NCBI RefSeq assembly: GCF_900111745.1
Contig: NZ_FOIJ01000016.1
Span: forward strand, 1-64,000
Length of the DNA stretch: 64,000 bases
From: Stigmatella erecta
GTDB taxonomy: Bacteria > Myxococcota > Myxococcia > Myxococcales > Myxococcaceae
Reading direction: 5' to 3'
The position numbers were made by a program, and so were the translations under genes. This document shows positions 429 through 5,088 of the stretch, piece by piece (the stretch's first letter is position 1; each line of letters opens with the position of its first letter). The notes beneath the pieces are model-generated. The model made no database searches. It was not told the DNA's origin and worked only from the letters and a program-made list of their open reading frames with translations.

Positions 429-472
429 TTTTCTTCCCTACTGAGATAGTCTCTAAGGCTTGCCCCTGCTGA

Positions 473-628
473 ACGCGGGTGCCCAGCACCCGGATTTCGT
501 GCCACTCGCCTTCCTCATGCTCCATGCGCTTTACTACTCCTTGCAAGTCCTGTTTCGACGAATACTGGAAGACGGGCCAGTGGCCCACCGACATTGAAGG
601 GCAACCTTGCCTTGGAGGCCCACGGTGA
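473..628 (+). pseudogene. C-terminal relic of a Cys-rich lipoprotein toxin candidate
   Basis: The frame ending at TGA 626-628 is open only back to 473 (an in-frame TGA lies at 470-472) and has no start or signal peptide. Its end reads PCKSCFDEYWKTGQWPTDI then EGQPCLGGPR. This matches the C-terminus of the intact lipoprotein at 3414-3896 (CQSCWRLCERTGQWPAEA then NGKPCPGGDGQ): the same CxxC, TGQWP and G-x-PC-x-GG spacing. It overlaps the following gene by a GTGA, as the intact pair overlaps by ATGA. The family N-terminus is missing, and the IS5-like element begins a short distance upstream, so truncation by insertion or deletion is likely. Homology is recognisable only in about the last 30 codons. 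Confidence 0.7.
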
Positions 629-1125
629 GGCGTTCCCGGAAAGCGTGGTGGGACGAGATGGCGCAAGACAGGGACGCTCTCGTGCTCCTGCTGAACTACG
701 CCGAAGCGCCATTTGAGGTTACCGTGCTGGCGCACAAGGGCTTCGAGCGGAAATGCCTGCGCGGGGCGCGGACGCCTGCCGAACGGCTGCACATTCAACG
801 GCTCTCGGCCAAGGACATCCTTGTGGAAGCCTACGCCGGTGCCCAGCCCTGGAAGGATTTTGGCCCGCCCCTGCTGCGCCTGAAGCGGCTCGGGTTCCCA
901 GATATCCGGACTCACGTCCTGGCCGCCTGTCTCTATGTCCAGGCGCTGGCCCTGTTCCCGGAGCGCGCGCGAGACGCTTTCGCGCTCCTCGCGGGCGCAG
1001 AGCGCCGGATCCGGCGGATGCCCAAAACGAGCCATGGCCGTGAGCAGCTGCTCGACGGAATAACTGACGCGCGCCGCGTGGCGGAGCTGCAAGGGCTCCG
1101 CCCACTGCAGGTGGGCACGTCGTAG
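625..1125 (+). CDS. Candidate immunity protein, paralogue of the 2929-3417 product
   Basis: GTG 625 is preferred because it overlaps the stop of the toxin relic (GTGA) and gives VRRSRKAWWDEMA, aligning with MTRARKEWWASVA of the paralogue at 2929-3417. The 166-residue product has no signal peptide or membrane span and looks mostly helical. It shares RTPAERLHIQRLS, the W-x-x-FGP block, RLGF and a C-terminal DARRVAE/HARNVAE block with the paralogue. I know no named domain for it. From its position directly downstream of a lipoprotein-toxin relic, it is inferred to be a cytoplasmic immunity protein, kept after the toxin was lost. A gene keeping an open frame beside a dead partner fits continued protection against siblings that still carry the toxin. 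Confidence 0.7.
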   Translation: MRRSRKAWWDEMAQDRDALVLLLNYAEAPFEVTVLAHKGFERKCLRGARTPAERLHIQRLSAKDILVEAYAGAQPWKDFGPPLLRLKRLGFPDIRTHVLAACLYVQALALFPERARDAFALLAGAERRIRRMPKTSHGREQLLDGITDARRVAELQGLRPLQVGTS

Positions 1126-1141
1126 CGGGCTCTGGCTGTTC

Positions 1142-1444
1142 GTGAGACCTCCTCGGGCTATAACCAAGAGGTGGTCCGTTGAGGTGGAGAAAGAGCTGGA
1201 GCAGTTCTGTCAAGAGCCGCAACGGCTGAAGGCTGGGCGGCGCAGTGGCTCGTTGCCGTTCCCCGAAGCCCTGCGCGCCTTCGCGGTGCGCTACACCGAG
1301 CACATCGTGACAGCGGAAGGAACATTGACGGAAGCAGTACAGAAGCTGGGTGTATCTGGGCCGACGTTTTACCAGTGGCCAAAGAGAAGCCCCACAGGGC
1401 ACCGTCAATTATCAGAGGTGCTATCTTGTGTTCTTCGTTTTTGA
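1142..1444 (+). pseudogene. Transposase-accessory-like HTH fragment, truncated at the 3' end
   Basis: The GTG-initiated frame of 100 codons contains ALRAFAVRYTEHIV and LTEAVQKLGVSGPTFYQW. The second block resembles the helix-turn-helix of small transposase or IS66-type accessory proteins. The codons after about 1385 (KRSPTGHRQLSEVLSCVLRF) overlap the 3' end of the convergent gene at 1405-2907 in antisense and look like chance read-through. The natural end of this protein therefore appears to have been lost where the next gene's DNA begins. No inverted repeats or partner transposase were seen. The family assignment is tentative. Confidence 0.4.
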
Positions 1445-2907
1445 AAATCTAGTGCTGCCTCCTGAAGCGTCGAGTCACCCTTGGTCTCGATTATATTGAA
1501 TACATCCTTGGGGAGGACCAAATCGCCCGCGACGGGATGCTCCCACAAACCAAGACAGGCATGAACCAAATCGGGCCTACCAGATGCAAAAAGAATTTTG
1601 ACAACTGAAGCCCAATTGGTCTGAACTGAAAGCACATCAACCGGCGAGCTGATTATGTGTTTTTCAAAATCTTCAAGAAAATCCTTCAGAATACCTAGAC
1701 CCTGGCTCACTAGCTCTGATGCTTCTATAGAAGCCCCTCTTCCAGCTTCTAGTATGAAATGCGCACGCTCACGCTCAGTGAATTTAGCTATTTTTTCGGA
1801 AGAAAGCGCTTGAATATCCGCGATAGCTCTTGCCGAATCGAGTCGCCACCAAGAACCAACATCTTTGAGCGTTGCTTGAATGCGAGCGCGGTGCAACTCT
1901 GGCCAGTCGAGCTCAAGCGCCACTGAAAGCGAAATAGACAAAAGCTCAAGCGAGCTTGAAACAAGCGTCACCTCATCTGCGGTAAGAAGCCCTTTCTTTC
2001 TAAGAACAGACAACGTTCTTCTTGCAGAGCCTTCGTTAACTGAACTACGCAGCACCACCAAGACACGGCCGCGCGTCAACTCGTCGAACGCCCCATACAA
2101 ATCGGGATTATTCTCAAGCAGTGGAATGACCTCGCCCGATAGCAAGTCCGACTCAACCAAACGCTTTGTATAGCGAGCGACTAGTTTCTTCAGTTCTATT
2201 GATTGATCGGCTAGCCCGCCAAGAAATGCAATCATGTTTTTTCGTGCAACCCTCTCCGCCGGTTTTCTGGGACTCAAGGTTGCGTCCTTGCGCGCTTCTG
2301 ACAACGCTCTCAACTGCTCGATCACCGAAAGAATCAAGGCTGGATACGTGCCTTGATACAGACGGGACAACTCCGCCTTTATGATGGATTGATGGGTATG
2401 CGATTCAGGAAAGAAGGTTGCGAGCTGAACTCTATCCACCAACGCTTTGGCCTCAGTAATACCCAATTGGAGTGGCCGCGCCAAGATGAGATCTATCAAG
2501 GTGACAATACAACTGCGCGCCGTCTCCGCGTTGGGCTGAAATCCAGATGGATGGGCCGCAAGGTGCCTAGTCTCAAGCAGTGCCCGGAGTTGCTTCGCCT
2601 CTGAAGGAGTCAAAACATTCCCAGGCTTTTCGCAAAGATCTACCAAATCTCTTTCGAAAGCTCGCTGATCTTCAAATGCTTTTTCGACAGCCTCAAATCT
2701 GAGTTGAAGGTCCTTGTTTCCCGTGCCACTACTCAATAGTTCAGACACGCGGCGACGGAGATGATCCATGGCCGCTCCGAAAGCTGTTACGATTGCAGCG
2801 CGGTAAGCTTCCGCATGGTAGCAGCTCACCGCTTCCGCCATGTAGTCACGCGAATTCTCGTCTTCAATGGAGAGAAGCAGCTCTTCTAAATCCCTCAATC
2901 GCCCCAT
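1405..2907 (-). CDS. HEPN-like 500-residue protein of unknown function, candidate defence gene
   Basis: The product starts MGRLRDLEELLLSIEDENSR and has no signal peptide. Its first ~160 residues contain CYHAEAYRAAIVTAFGAAMDHL and, near residue 125, LLETRHLAAHPSGF. The latter is an Rx4H motif (R-HLAA-H) of the kind that forms the ribonuclease site of HEPN domains, in the context 'RHLxAHP' seen in several defence-associated proteins. The remainder is predominantly helical and unassigned. The gene is visibly richer in A/T and in AAA, GAA and ATT codons than its neighbours, indicating transfer. It lies between two convergent candidate immunity genes in an IS-marked island. It could be an anti-phage or abortive-infection RNase; that is inference from motif and context. 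Confidence 0.6.
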   Translation of the reverse strand: MGRLRDLEELLLSIEDENSRDYMAEAVSCYHAEAYRAAIVTAFGAAMDHLRRRVSELLSSGTGNKDLQLRFEAVEKAFEDQRAFERDLVDLCEKPGNVLTPSEAKQLRALLETRHLAAHPSGFQPNAETARSCIVTLIDLILARPLQLGITEAKALVDRVQLATFFPESHTHQSIIKAELSRLYQGTYPALILSVIEQLRALSEARKDATLSPRKPAERVARKNMIAFLGGLADQSIELKKLVARYTKRLVESDLLSGEVIPLLENNPDLYGAFDELTRGRVLVVLRSSVNEGSARRTLSVLRKKGLLTADEVTLVSSSLELLSISLSVALELDWPELHRARIQATLKDVGSWWRLDSARAIADIQALSSEKIAKFTERERAHFILEAGRGASIEASELVSQGLGILKDFLEDFEKHIISSPVDVLSVQTNWASVVKILFASGRPDLVHACLGLWEHPVAGDLVLPKDVFNIIETKGDSTLQEAALDFQKRRTQDSTSDN

Positions 2908-2928
2908 TTACTGTCTCCCCTGCATATA

Positions 2929-3417
2929 TTAACGCTCCCATTTGAGCCCGGCTGCCTCTGCGACGTTCCGGGCATGGACAATGCTCGCCATTCCCTCACG
3001 GCGTAGGTAGTGGCTCTTCCGGATGCGCTTGAGCGCCTGCTCCACTGAGGTCAATTCGGCGAATGCCCGTGGGGCTTTCTCAGGGAAGCCAGGCAGTGCT
3101 TGCACAAAGCAGCACGCCACCTCGATCCGGTGGGTCATATCCGCGAAGCCAAGCCGTTGACAACGGCGCAACAGCGGACCGAACTCGGCCCACTTGAGGC
3201 GCCGCGCGTAAGCCTCAGTGATCAGCACCGGCATCGAAAGCCGCTGGATGTGCAACCGTTCTGCGGGCGTTCTTGCCTCCCGCATGAGTTCCTTCTCTTG
3301 CGCGCGGATCGCCTGTTCGAAGTCACACCAAGGCATGTTCGCCTTGAGAAGCTTGATCAGGTGTTCATCGCGTCTCACCGCGACGCTCGCCCACCACTCT
3401 TTGCGCGCTCGCGTCAT
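2929..3417 (-). CDS. Candidate immunity protein for the upstream Cys-rich lipoprotein
   Basis: The ATG at 3417 overlaps the TGA of the upstream lipoprotein gene (ATGA), so the two are translationally coupled. The 162-residue product begins MTRARKEWWASVAVRRDEHL and lacks export signals. It carries ARTPAERLHIQRLS, KWAEFGPLLRRCQRLGF and a C-terminal HARNVAEAAG block, all also present in the product of 625-1125. Pairing with a secreted lipoprotein of polymorphic-toxin appearance suggests an immunity role, as in the myxobacterial SitA/SitI cassettes. I do not recognise a named domain, and the toxin-immunity reading rests on gene order and the paralogous second copy. Confidence 0.65.
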   Translation of the reverse strand: MTRARKEWWASVAVRRDEHLIKLLKANMPWCDFEQAIRAQEKELMREARTPAERLHIQRLSMPVLITEAYARRLKWAEFGPLLRRCQRLGFADMTHRIEVACCFVQALPGFPEKAPRAFAELTSVEQALKRIRKSHYLRREGMASIVHARNVAEAAGLKWER

Positions 3418-3896
3418 TGACCATCACCTCCTGGGCAAGGCTTCCCGTTCGCCTCCGCTGGCCACTGGCCCGTACGCTCGCACAACCGCCAGCATGACTG
3501 ACACTGACGCTCTCCATACACGCGCCATTGCGCATCCCCCTGCACGAAGTCGCTACAGCGCACGTAGTAGTCAAGGCAACGCTTCCGCCACTCCTCCCGT
3601 TCTTCAGGGGTTGGCTCGGGCGGAATGAACGGCTTGGGCCTTCGTTCGGGCTTGGGTTGGTTTTTCGGGCTGGGTTGATTTTTGGGCTGCATCTTGGGGC
3701 CAGCCATGCCCGTGCAGCGCTCCCAAGCTCCGGGGTGCTCCTTGAGGCAGCACGTCTCGGTGTCGTCGCCCGGTTGGCACCCCATCCCGTTCATGTAGCA
3801 CCCTGTCTCCAAGAGCAGGCCAGGGAGCAGCCAAAGCGCGCAACACACTACCCTGCGCGCGAACACGCCCGGCCGTCTCATGAAACGTCCCCACAT
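3414..3896 (-). CDS. Cys-rich lipoprotein, candidate kin-discrimination toxin
   Basis: ATG 3896 is supported by AAGGGAAG just upstream. Residues 1-32 form a signal peptide (MRRPGVFARRVVCCALWLL) ending in a lipobox-like LLETGC. A short Cys-containing stretch and a Pro/Lys/Gln linker (PKNQPSPKNQPKPERRPKP) follow. The C-terminal ~55 residues are Cys-rich: RKRCLDYYVRCSDF, then CQSCWRLCERTGQWP, then GKPCPGG. This layout of lipid anchor, linker and compact C-terminal domain fits toxins passed between myxobacterial cells by outer-membrane exchange, with the coupled downstream gene as immunity. Another possibility is a plain surface lipoprotein. A truncated homologue lies at 473-628. Confidence 0.65.
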   Translation of the reverse strand: MWGRFMRRPGVFARRVVCCALWLLPGLLLETGCYMNGMGCQPGDDTETCCLKEHPGAWERCTGMAGPKMQPKNQPSPKNQPKPERRPKPFIPPEPTPEEREEWRKRCLDYYVRCSDFVQGDAQWRVYGERQCQSCWRLCERTGQWPAEANGKPCPGGDGQ

Positions 3897-3936
3897 ACTT
3901 CCCTTTCGCGCGTTGCCGCTCCTCCCAAAACAGGCC

Positions 3937-5088
3937 CTACTCCCGGTCGAGGGCGTCCAGCACCGTCCGGGCTTCCGCGTCCTCGCGCTGGTGCTCTTCC
4001 ACGCGCGGCACCTCTTCCCAGCGGATCCACCCAGCCTTGGCCGCGTGCCGGGCCGCCGTCACCGTGTCGTCCACCACCATCATCTGGCTGCCCGCCTGGC
4101 GCACCTGCTCCGCGATGCGCGCCAGCTCCACCGCCCGCTTCTCCTTCGACGGCACGTTGCGGATGTACACGCACTTCACCCGCCCCGGGTACTCGCGAAC
4201 GATGGTCCGGTAGTGCTCCGCGTCCTCCTGCCCACTGTCCCCAATCAGGATGAAGGGCAGGTGCTCCAGCGTGCCCATCACCCCGCGGATCTTGTCCAGC
4301 TTGTGCCCATGTCCGCCCCCGGGCGCGAACCCGTGGCGCGACAGCCCCCAGTCCCGCAGCAGCAGCGGGCCCGCCGGAATCCGGTGCAGCGACAGGAACT
4401 CGTCCAGGTGCTCGTACAGGTTCCACGGGCTGCTGGAGACATAGAAGATGGGGTTCGTCTCCTGCCCCTGACTGCCATCGTGCAGCGCCTTGTAGAAGGC
4501 ATCCACGCCCTCGAAGGGCAGCCGCGTGCGGTGCTCCGTCAGGAACAGCGTCCACGCCCGCTTCACCGGGTTGGTGACTCCCGTGACGATGACCGTGTCG
4601 TCGATGTCGCTGATGACGCCCAGCTCCGCCTCGGCCCCCGCCACCAGCACCGGCGCGGACACCGTGGGTACCCCTTCCGGCTCCGGCGCGAGCAGCTCCA
4701 GCTTCACGAAGTTCCACCCCGGGAGCACCCCCGCCGGGGGCTCTACCCACAGCGTGAGGAAGCCCTCCTCGTCCGTGGTGCCCTCCCAGCGCTTCTCCTC
4801 CCAGTGCACCGCCACCCGCGCCCCGCCCAGCTCCCGCGTCGCATACCGCTGGTACGAGGCGATGGCGCTGCCCACCAGCGTGCGCCGCAGGTGCGCGGGC
4901 CGCACGTCCCGGTCCTCCAGCACCCGCGCCTGGATGAGCACCCGCTCCGGGGAGCCATACCCCCGGTAGGGCAGAATGCGCGGAGGCCGCGCCCACTTCA
5001 GCTGGCGCCGGACCCGGCGGCTCCATGCGTCCCACGTGGCGTCGGCTCGAACGGCGAACTCGAAGAAGGAGGACTTGAAGGCAGGCAT
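3937..5088 (-). CDS. App1-type phosphatase domain protein (DUF2183)
   Basis: The start is placed at ATG 5088 (MPAFKSSFFEFAVRAD); the open frame continues upstream but that part is not protein-like. The 383-residue product has an N-terminal beta-rich half (PYRGYGSPERVLIQARVLED, LPGWNFVKLELL). The C-terminal half carries ISDIDDTVIVTGV (the HAD-type DxDxT nucleophile motif), YVSSSPWNLYEHL and FILIGDSGQEDAEHY. This is the signature of the DUF2183/App1 family, named after yeast phosphatidate phosphatase App1. No signal peptide is seen, so it is probably cytoplasmic. Phosphatidate as substrate is inferred from the family name only. It is divergent from the sensor kinase at 5348. Confidence 0.85.
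   Translation of the reverse strand: MPAFKSSFFEFAVRADATWDAWSRRVRRQLKWARPPRILPYRGYGSPERVLIQARVLEDRDVRPAHLRRTLVGSAIASYQRYATRELGGARVAVHWEEKRWEGTTDEEGFLTLWVEPPAGVLPGWNFVKLELLAPEPEGVPTVSAPVLVAGAEAELGVISDIDDTVIVTGVTNPVKRAWTLFLTEHRTRLPFEGVDAFYKALHDGSQGQETNPIFYVSSSPWNLYEHLDEFLSLHRIPAGPLLLRDWGLSRHGFAPGGGHGHKLDKIRGVMGTLEHLPFILIGDSGQEDAEHYRTIVREYPGRVKCVYIRNVPSKEKRAVELARIAEQVRQAGSQMMVVDDTVTAARHAAKAGWIRWEEVPRVEEHQREDAEARTVLDALDRE

Follow-up and report, generated by a model that had tools for sequence, protein, structure and literature searches.

Near one end of a contig, in an IS-marked island, lies a gene that stands out by its base composition, and the question that this locus raises is whether it constitutes an anti-phage system on its own. 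A first-pass annotation of the sequence had suggested as much, on the grounds of a HEPN-type Rx4H motif and of signs of transfer. The window analysed here comprises bases 1-64000 of contig C16 in an assembly of 9.2 Mb; since it starts at contig base 1, the contig end is only 1.4 kb from the gene. The explanation we favour, at a probability of about 0.72, is that its product belongs to the PD-T7-3 family and acts as a single-protein effector, in which a HEPN RNase joined to a helical solenoid would protect by abortive infection, and that the gene would have been acquired horizontally.

An intact gene of foreign composition

The open reading frame on the reverse strand was borne out with the exact coordinates first assigned to it (Table 1): it encodes 500 amino acids, opens with ATG and contains no internal stop. 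Its GC content of 49.8% is the minimum among 625 tiles of 1.5 kb across a window of 69% GC, so that the label "A/T-rich" holds relative to the genome (49.8% versus 69%) but not in absolute terms. GC3 is 48%, whereas the phosphatase gene and a kinase-like gene (a name given by eye) to the right reach a GC3 of 93-94% and have an overall GC of 71%. The gene is thus intact, foreign in composition and without a full-length homologue in its congeners, and it is the single HEPN-solenoid gene of the PD-T7-3-type family in this genome. Pfam, NCBIfam and PHROGs returned for the protein only matches that are below cut-off, weak or unnamed, and a structure search of BFVD gave nothing better than E 0.11.

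Table 1. Coordinates of the features at and around the HEPN-solenoid gene (window positions)
Feature	Position	Strand	Evidence
Stretch with IS4/5-type transposase fragment, contig end	1..420	-	PF13340 E 5e-21, 116-aa piece; 7 genome matches including itself
Second copy of partner gene, on the other side	607..1125	+	44% identical, E 1.9e-33
Short ORF, weak transposase HTH similarity	1142..1444	+	HTH_Tnp_1 E 0.028, below Pfam cut-off
HEPN-solenoid gene, putative divergent PD-T7-3-family member	1405..2907	-	ORF; PADLOC PDLC04108 E 3.3e-15; AF2 pLDDT 82, pTM 0.64
C-terminal all-helical HEAT/ARM-like solenoid (predicted), residues 150-500, proposed sensor	1408..2460	-	AF2 model; 14% vs 33% identity
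N-terminal HEPN domain (predicted), residues 1-149	2461..2907	-	AF2 pLDDT 92.5; 2hsb Z 11.6; 'Dandelion-hepn' 9wx2 E 6.4e-26
Motif R114-HLAA-H119-P120 (Rx4HP)	2548..2568	-	R, H, P invariant 36/36; N/H/D after R 36/36
Shine-Dalgarno-like GGGGAG	2915..2920	-	7 bases 5' of ATG; read by eye in the sequence
162-aa partner gene	2929..3417	-	Ends 21 bases before HEPN start; 8 genome matches including itself
Cys-rich lipoprotein-like gene overlapping partner gene	3414..3896	-	ORF; no Pfam match at E 0.01
Conserved flank: phosphatidate phosphatase (APP1_cat) gene	3937..5034	-	PF09949 E 3.9e-51; 7/7 genus genomes searched, own included

A predicted HEPN bundle at the N-terminus

Structure prediction and comparison with HEPN folds, the check proposed in the first-pass annotation, returned a HEPN bundle as the predicted N-terminal fold. 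The AlphaFold2 model of residues 1-149, for which 19 sequences served as input, reached a pLDDT of 92.5. Upon re-ranking of the Foldseek list with VIA-align, rows 1 to 11 were all HEPN or HEPN-type proteins (Z 9.1-11.6, rmsd 2.7-3.5), headed by 2hsb (Z 11.6, rmsd 3.1, 115 aligned) and including 2q00 (Z 11.0), the HEPN domain of sacsin (Z 10.7) and the toxin-antitoxin structure 7bxo (Z 9.6). Entries 2q00, 2jpu, 1ufb, 7bxo and 5yep we take to be HEPN proteins, though their titles do not say so. The Roquin ROQ domain followed in row 12 (Z 8.9), with Csm6 (7.8), AbiV (7.6) and the best de novo design (6.8) further down. Foldseek alone, run with the HEPN part against the PDB, also placed a HEPN protein in its top row, with an E-value of only 0.2, and at the profile level the HEPN part matches a solved domain that its depositors named 'Dandelion-hepn' (9wx2) at E 6.4e-26. 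Because Z-scores of about 9-12 are modest for helical bundles, we base the fold call on the agreement among the top matches together with the 9wx2 profile match; on these grounds residues 1-149 are predicted to form a HEPN-superfamily helical bundle.

Pfam DUF4145 (PF13643) reaches 14 bits on the window protein and thus remains below its gathering cut-off of 23.1; for the members of a 13-sequence alignment (A4) it is listed at E <= 0.1 in seven cases, the best at 6.7e-6. In fold, the window protein is similar to DUF4145 and to the HEPN domains of HepT, AbiV and Csm6, as the Z-scores above for 7bxo, AbiV and Csm6 illustrate. It differs from HepT- and Csm6-type arrangements in that the 162-residue partner has no Pfam nucleotidyltransferase match and the window protein itself no CARF match.

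The Rx4H motif and six invariant residues

The Rx4H motif reported initially is present as RHLAAH at residues 114-119, slightly before the position "near residue 125" first given for it, and the preceding helix CYHAEAYRAAIVTAFGAAM spans residues 29-47. In the AlphaFold2 model, R114 is located within helix 101-118 and H119 follows directly, which places the motif where the third main helix ends. For HEPN domains with a retained motif, Rx4-6H is described as closing helix 3, with a polar N, D or H after the arginine (Anantharaman et al., PMC3710099). The presence of the motif proves little by itself, because the window protein contains two Rx4H matches (R114 and R444) where 0.85 are expected from its composition. 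Conservation among homologues, on which the first-pass annotation had staked its reading, was found to be complete: R114, H119 and P120 are kept in 36 of 36 sequences. Exactly six columns are invariant in the alignment of the window protein with 35 homologues, namely Y30, R36, E85, R114, H119 and P120, and over 36 divergent proteins they represent a compact set of residues to mutate. The motif arginine is followed by N in 28 sequences, H in seven and D in one, and the proline after Rx4H falls at residues 110-127.

The homologues were drawn from whole genomes, plasmids, viral contigs and genome contigs; the plasmid search gave 27 records at E <= 0.01, of which 13 were taken. For 21 of the 36 rows (the window protein, two whole-genome, seven viral and 11 plasmid sequences) no motif-bearing pattern was involved in their retrieval, whereas the other 15, from the genome-contig scan, may have been found using one. 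Y30 and R36 are not independent in the 22 viral and genome-contig rows, since those scans could use a pattern that covers both residues. Excluded before the count were the near-copies L014, L017, L019-L023, L025 and L039, a 281-residue ORF (L033), one relative split over two frames (L008/L009), five proteins of another architecture with a C-terminal HEPN domain (L005, L006, L007, L046, L061), a doubtful homologue with a 67-residue match (L048) and L002 (E 0.3).

The HEPN domain could also be a non-catalytic binder of RNA or nucleotides, with the solenoid as the acting part, for example by binding a phage protein, so that protection would come without RNA cutting. Some HEPN domains are indeed thought to be inactive (PMC3710099), and in the literature examined we met no enzymatic test of the PD-T7-3-type family. 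Those thought non-catalytic are, however, described in the same source as lacking the motif (PMC3710099), whereas here the arginine, the histidine and the polar residue after the arginine are kept in all 36 sequences, as in motif-bearing HEPN domains, and we consider such a binder unlikely.

Probable kinship with PD-T7-3, Dandelion and BxaP

The catalytic, single-protein effector that we favour is placed in a known family by its profile matches. The PADLOC model for PD-T7-3 (PDLC04108) matches the window protein at E 3.3e-15 (54 bits, residues 6-145, PADLOC coverage rules not applied), a match that covers only positions 5-152 of the 432 in the model. The near relatives L003, L030 and L034 likewise match only positions of about 5-178, while for L018, L028, L004, L045, L047 and L062 the match extends over most of the model. 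All 13 members of alignment A4, the window protein included, match this model. Among 14 control genomes the model found a match in one, M. jannaschii. The best PD-T7-3 match among the proteins scanned, the Pantoea plasmid protein L062 (E 1.6e-93), served as a stand-in for the E. coli PD-T7-3 sequence.

L062 is a clear relative of a solved protein called 'Dandelion' (9wxf, E 3.4e-46). The A4 profile, with the window protein included, gives an E-value of 1.2e-33 against 9wxf, spanning profile positions 5-393, and the window protein alone matches Dandelion at E 2.8e-4 to 5e-4 over the HEPN part and slightly further. Within the Dandelion entries (9wxf, 9wx2 and 9wwz), the RHLSAHP of 'Dandelion-hepn' aligns with RHLAAHP of the window protein. 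The full-length entry 9wxf of this PD-T7-3-family protein has 12 chains. Our literature searches, which extended to myxobacterial HEPN anti-phage proteins and were judged from the listings, found no paper describing Dandelion or the window protein.

PD-T7-3 was obtained by selection from E. coli isolates; it is reported to defend E. coli, with protection that is stronger for T-even phages than for T7 (PMC9519451; Vassallo et al. 2022), and it is counted among HEPN systems (PMC10952713). BxaP (ORF376), which was chosen for its structural likeness to PD-T7-3, a known single-gene system, is described as giving about 1000-fold protection against T4, likely via abortive infection, and as combining an N-terminal DUF4145 with weak C-terminal HEAT similarity; its P121A exchange lowers protection (PMC10799925). 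PD-T7-3 itself is stated there to be absent from defence islands (PMC10799925).

The window protein shares with PD-T7-3 an N-terminal HEPN domain, and the stand-in L062 has all six invariant residues; it differs in length, exceeding the 432-position model by 68 residues, and its match ends at residue 145. The layout of HEPN domain plus helical solenoid is modelled for the window protein, and for PD-T7-3 it is assumed via the likeness to Dandelion and BxaP. With BxaP, compared by its published description, the window protein shares the DUF4145-type HEPN domain, the HEAT-like C-terminus and the likeness to PD-T7-3; BxaP sits in a type 3 BREX system, whereas neither BREX nor type I restriction genes were seen, by eye, among the ORFs in the first 12 kb of the window, where the contig ends 1.4 kb from the gene on one side; genes of these types do occur near the relatives L034 and L044. 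As the proline falls at residues 110-127 across the 36 sequences, BxaP P121 is probably the proline of Rx4HP, and P120 of the window protein would then correspond to a residue whose mutation weakens defence.

A maximum-likelihood tree of the 36 rows, rooted at the midpoint, groups the window protein with L003 from another genus of the same family (39% identity, support 99/97); the two then join L030, a Myxococcales record (support 98/88). This trio belongs to a 22-row part of the tree, which separates with 100/100 support from the 14 rows that include L062. Inner placements are unsure, and several branches are long. Judged by these sequence comparisons, the protein is a new, divergent member of the already known single-gene defence family PD-T7-3, which would extend the family to a divergent clade common to another Myxococcales genome. 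A blastn search with L018, L028 and L062 against an E. coli genome collection gave zero matches, as did tblastn of the window protein against phage records.

A predicted, divergent C-terminal solenoid

The remainder of about 340 residues, initially left unassigned, is predicted to form a solenoid of the HEAT/ARM-like kind. The full-length AlphaFold2 model (pLDDT 82, pTM 0.64) is all helical past residue 147, and its C-terminal part matches solenoids of the HEAT, ARM and PUF types, the best with Z 10.4 over 189 residues at 6.7 A. Such matches would show a kind of architecture and no specific relative. Foldseek with the whole model pointed to importin-type repeat proteins, which were set aside at TM-scores of <= 0.3.

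Mean identity to the 35 homologues is 33% for the HEPN domain and 14% for the solenoid (8-31% in the alignment), the solenoid being lower in 35 of 35 comparisons, and tblastn with the C-terminal part alone against plasmids found zero relatives. A conserved HEPN domain combined with a diversifying solenoid is the pattern that would be expected if an effector were coupled to a sensor that diversifies; a faster drift of the structural repeat would give the same contrast in identity. If specificity resides in the solenoid, swaps of this part between family members should shift the range of phages recognised. Since the PD-T7-3 match of the window protein is confined to the HEPN domain and its C-terminal part is divergent, the trigger may differ from that of its relatives, or the solenoid may have another role.

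A proposed mechanism

From its relatives and from HEPN chemistry we infer RNase activity, a solenoid that acts as sensor, abortive infection and protection against phage. The active site would consist of Rx4HP (R114, H119 and P120); Y30, R36 and E85 are invariant as well. Before infection, the HEPN nuclease would be held in an inactive, autoinhibited state. Upon infection, a phage product or assembly might act on the solenoid, which would permit activation of the HEPN domains and the consequent cutting of RNA; the infected cell would then stop before phage release, an abortive infection.

The upstream partner gene

Directly upstream of the HEPN gene lie a 162-residue partner gene and a Cys-rich lipoprotein-like gene, and a second copy of the partner is found on the other side (Table 1). 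This arrangement allows the HEPN protein to be read as the toxin of a toxin-antitoxin module, in which the partner or the lipoprotein pair would be the antidote or regulator and defence would be secondary. The partner lies on the same strand with a gap of 21 bases to the HEPN gene, and a toxin-antitoxin HEPN structure, 7bxo, is among the close structural matches (Z 9.6). The partner belongs, however, to a separate family with eight matches in the genome, which is paired with a lipoprotein at L052 and L054, whereas the HEPN-solenoid gene is single; in the homologue L003 a DUF3800 gene takes the upstream position of the partner, and PD-T7-3 and BxaP are described as single-gene systems (PMC10799925). 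A toxin-antitoxin module is in our opinion quite improbable. At both L052 and L054 a similar lipoprotein directly precedes the partner, and by homology the lipoprotein-like gene of the window appears not to be part of the HEPN system. Further matches of the partner gene in this genome are located at L050-L052 and L054-L056.

A variable site beside the phosphatase gene

For the HEPN-solenoid effector, transfer into the locus had been proposed from its base composition and its position in an IS-marked island. The IS mark is real: an IS4/5-type transposase fragment is present within bases 1-420. Collinearity with six congeners ends at window positions 3932-3956, which is the end of the phosphatase gene; G040 says little on this point, because its contig ends about 170 bases past the break point. 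In the closest congener, G037 (95% identity on the right), collinearity resumes over 92 bases (window 453-544), so that the block differing from G037 spans about 545-3931.

The gene content of the site was worked out for G036, G037 and G038, and G039, G040 and G041 were used for collinearity only. G037 has one lipoprotein-like gene at this site. In G038 a distance of 15 bases separates the end of the next ORF from the phosphatase gene, and this ORF also occurs close to the site in G036 and G037. G036 carries a pair of genes for an AAA ATPase and a DUF4276 protein (L079:5908-7505, -) that match HEC-01A at E 1e-42 and HEC-01B at E 1.5e-12. From these contents the site is variable and has taken up a defence-like pair in one relative. 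At a threshold of E 0.001, the window protein had no match in five of the six congeners, and the sixth, G041, has only a weak one (E 8.2e-5) to a 249-residue protein of another architecture. Composition, the lack of a full-length homologue in the six congeners and the IS fragment thus all back transfer, and on these sequence data the HEPN gene most likely arrived by horizontal transfer, at a variable site adjoining the phosphatase gene.

The IS fragment and the weak transposase-like ORF on one side might raise the suspicion that the gene is decaying or cryptic island cargo without present function; 500 intact codons, a Shine-Dalgarno-like site and all six family-invariant residues make this very unlikely.

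The lipoprotein-like gene of G037 (L077:10882-11382, -), also beside the phosphatase gene, is different from that of the window and has a similar Cys pattern; since G037 carries a different lipoprotein-like gene there, the site seems to exchange lipoprotein cassettes. In layout, the lipoprotein/partner pair of the window is similar to the SitA/SitI kin-discrimination (toxin-immunity) cassettes of myxobacteria (PMC5562445). SitA/SitI comprise an outer-membrane lipoprotein with a C-terminal toxin domain and an immunity gene, whereas the window lipoprotein has no recognised domain. That the HEPN gene forms one operon with this cassette, the solenoid sensing a non-self lipoprotein delivered by another cell instead of a phage and the HEPN domain killing the recipient, would join kin discrimination and phage-type immunity in a single operon, and we regard it as far-fetched.

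Defence genes beside the relatives

A survey of the neighbourhoods of homologues, likewise suggested in the first-pass annotation, gave a mixed outcome for the PD-T7-3-type effector. Matches to defence models lie within 10 kb at at least five of 15 genome loci of relatives, a raw count derived from ten proteins picked by eye (of which L034:90-1157 had no match) and three for L030 (two matched). The neighbours are QatA, QatC and QatD at L030, BrxH/HmaA-like and HmaB/PglX-like proteins at L034, a Septu-like ATPase and a DNA methyltransferase at L038, a type I restriction subunit at L044, and a type III methyltransferase and a TIR protein at L045. The two genes that flank the closest homologue, L003, matched no PADLOC model; the one directly upstream is the DUF3800 gene (L003:225-1418, +). 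In the window, no other defence gene was found among four PADLOC-scanned proteins or, by eye, among the ORFs of the first 12 kb.

Two of the 13 plasmid records have a neighbour annotated by a defence name (JetD; DndB), and three more have suggestive neighbours (AIPR; an AAA ATPase with a helicase; a PD-(D/E)XK nuclease with a UvrD helicase). Among the 14 viral contigs, we take L018 and L019 to be P2-type prophages by their look, with gene identities assigned by eye. Defence genes beside some relatives, together with the homology to PD-T7-3 and the variable insertion site, speak for the single-gene anti-phage system that was originally suggested.

A shorter form with a C-terminal HEPN domain of the same RN..AHP type exists in L005, L006, L007, L046 and L061 (about 200-320 residues). 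The L007 gene, whose protein has no PADLOC match, is located beside a type I methyltransferase look-alike identified by eye, and in several cases a second gene of about 200-260 residues precedes the shorter HEPN form.
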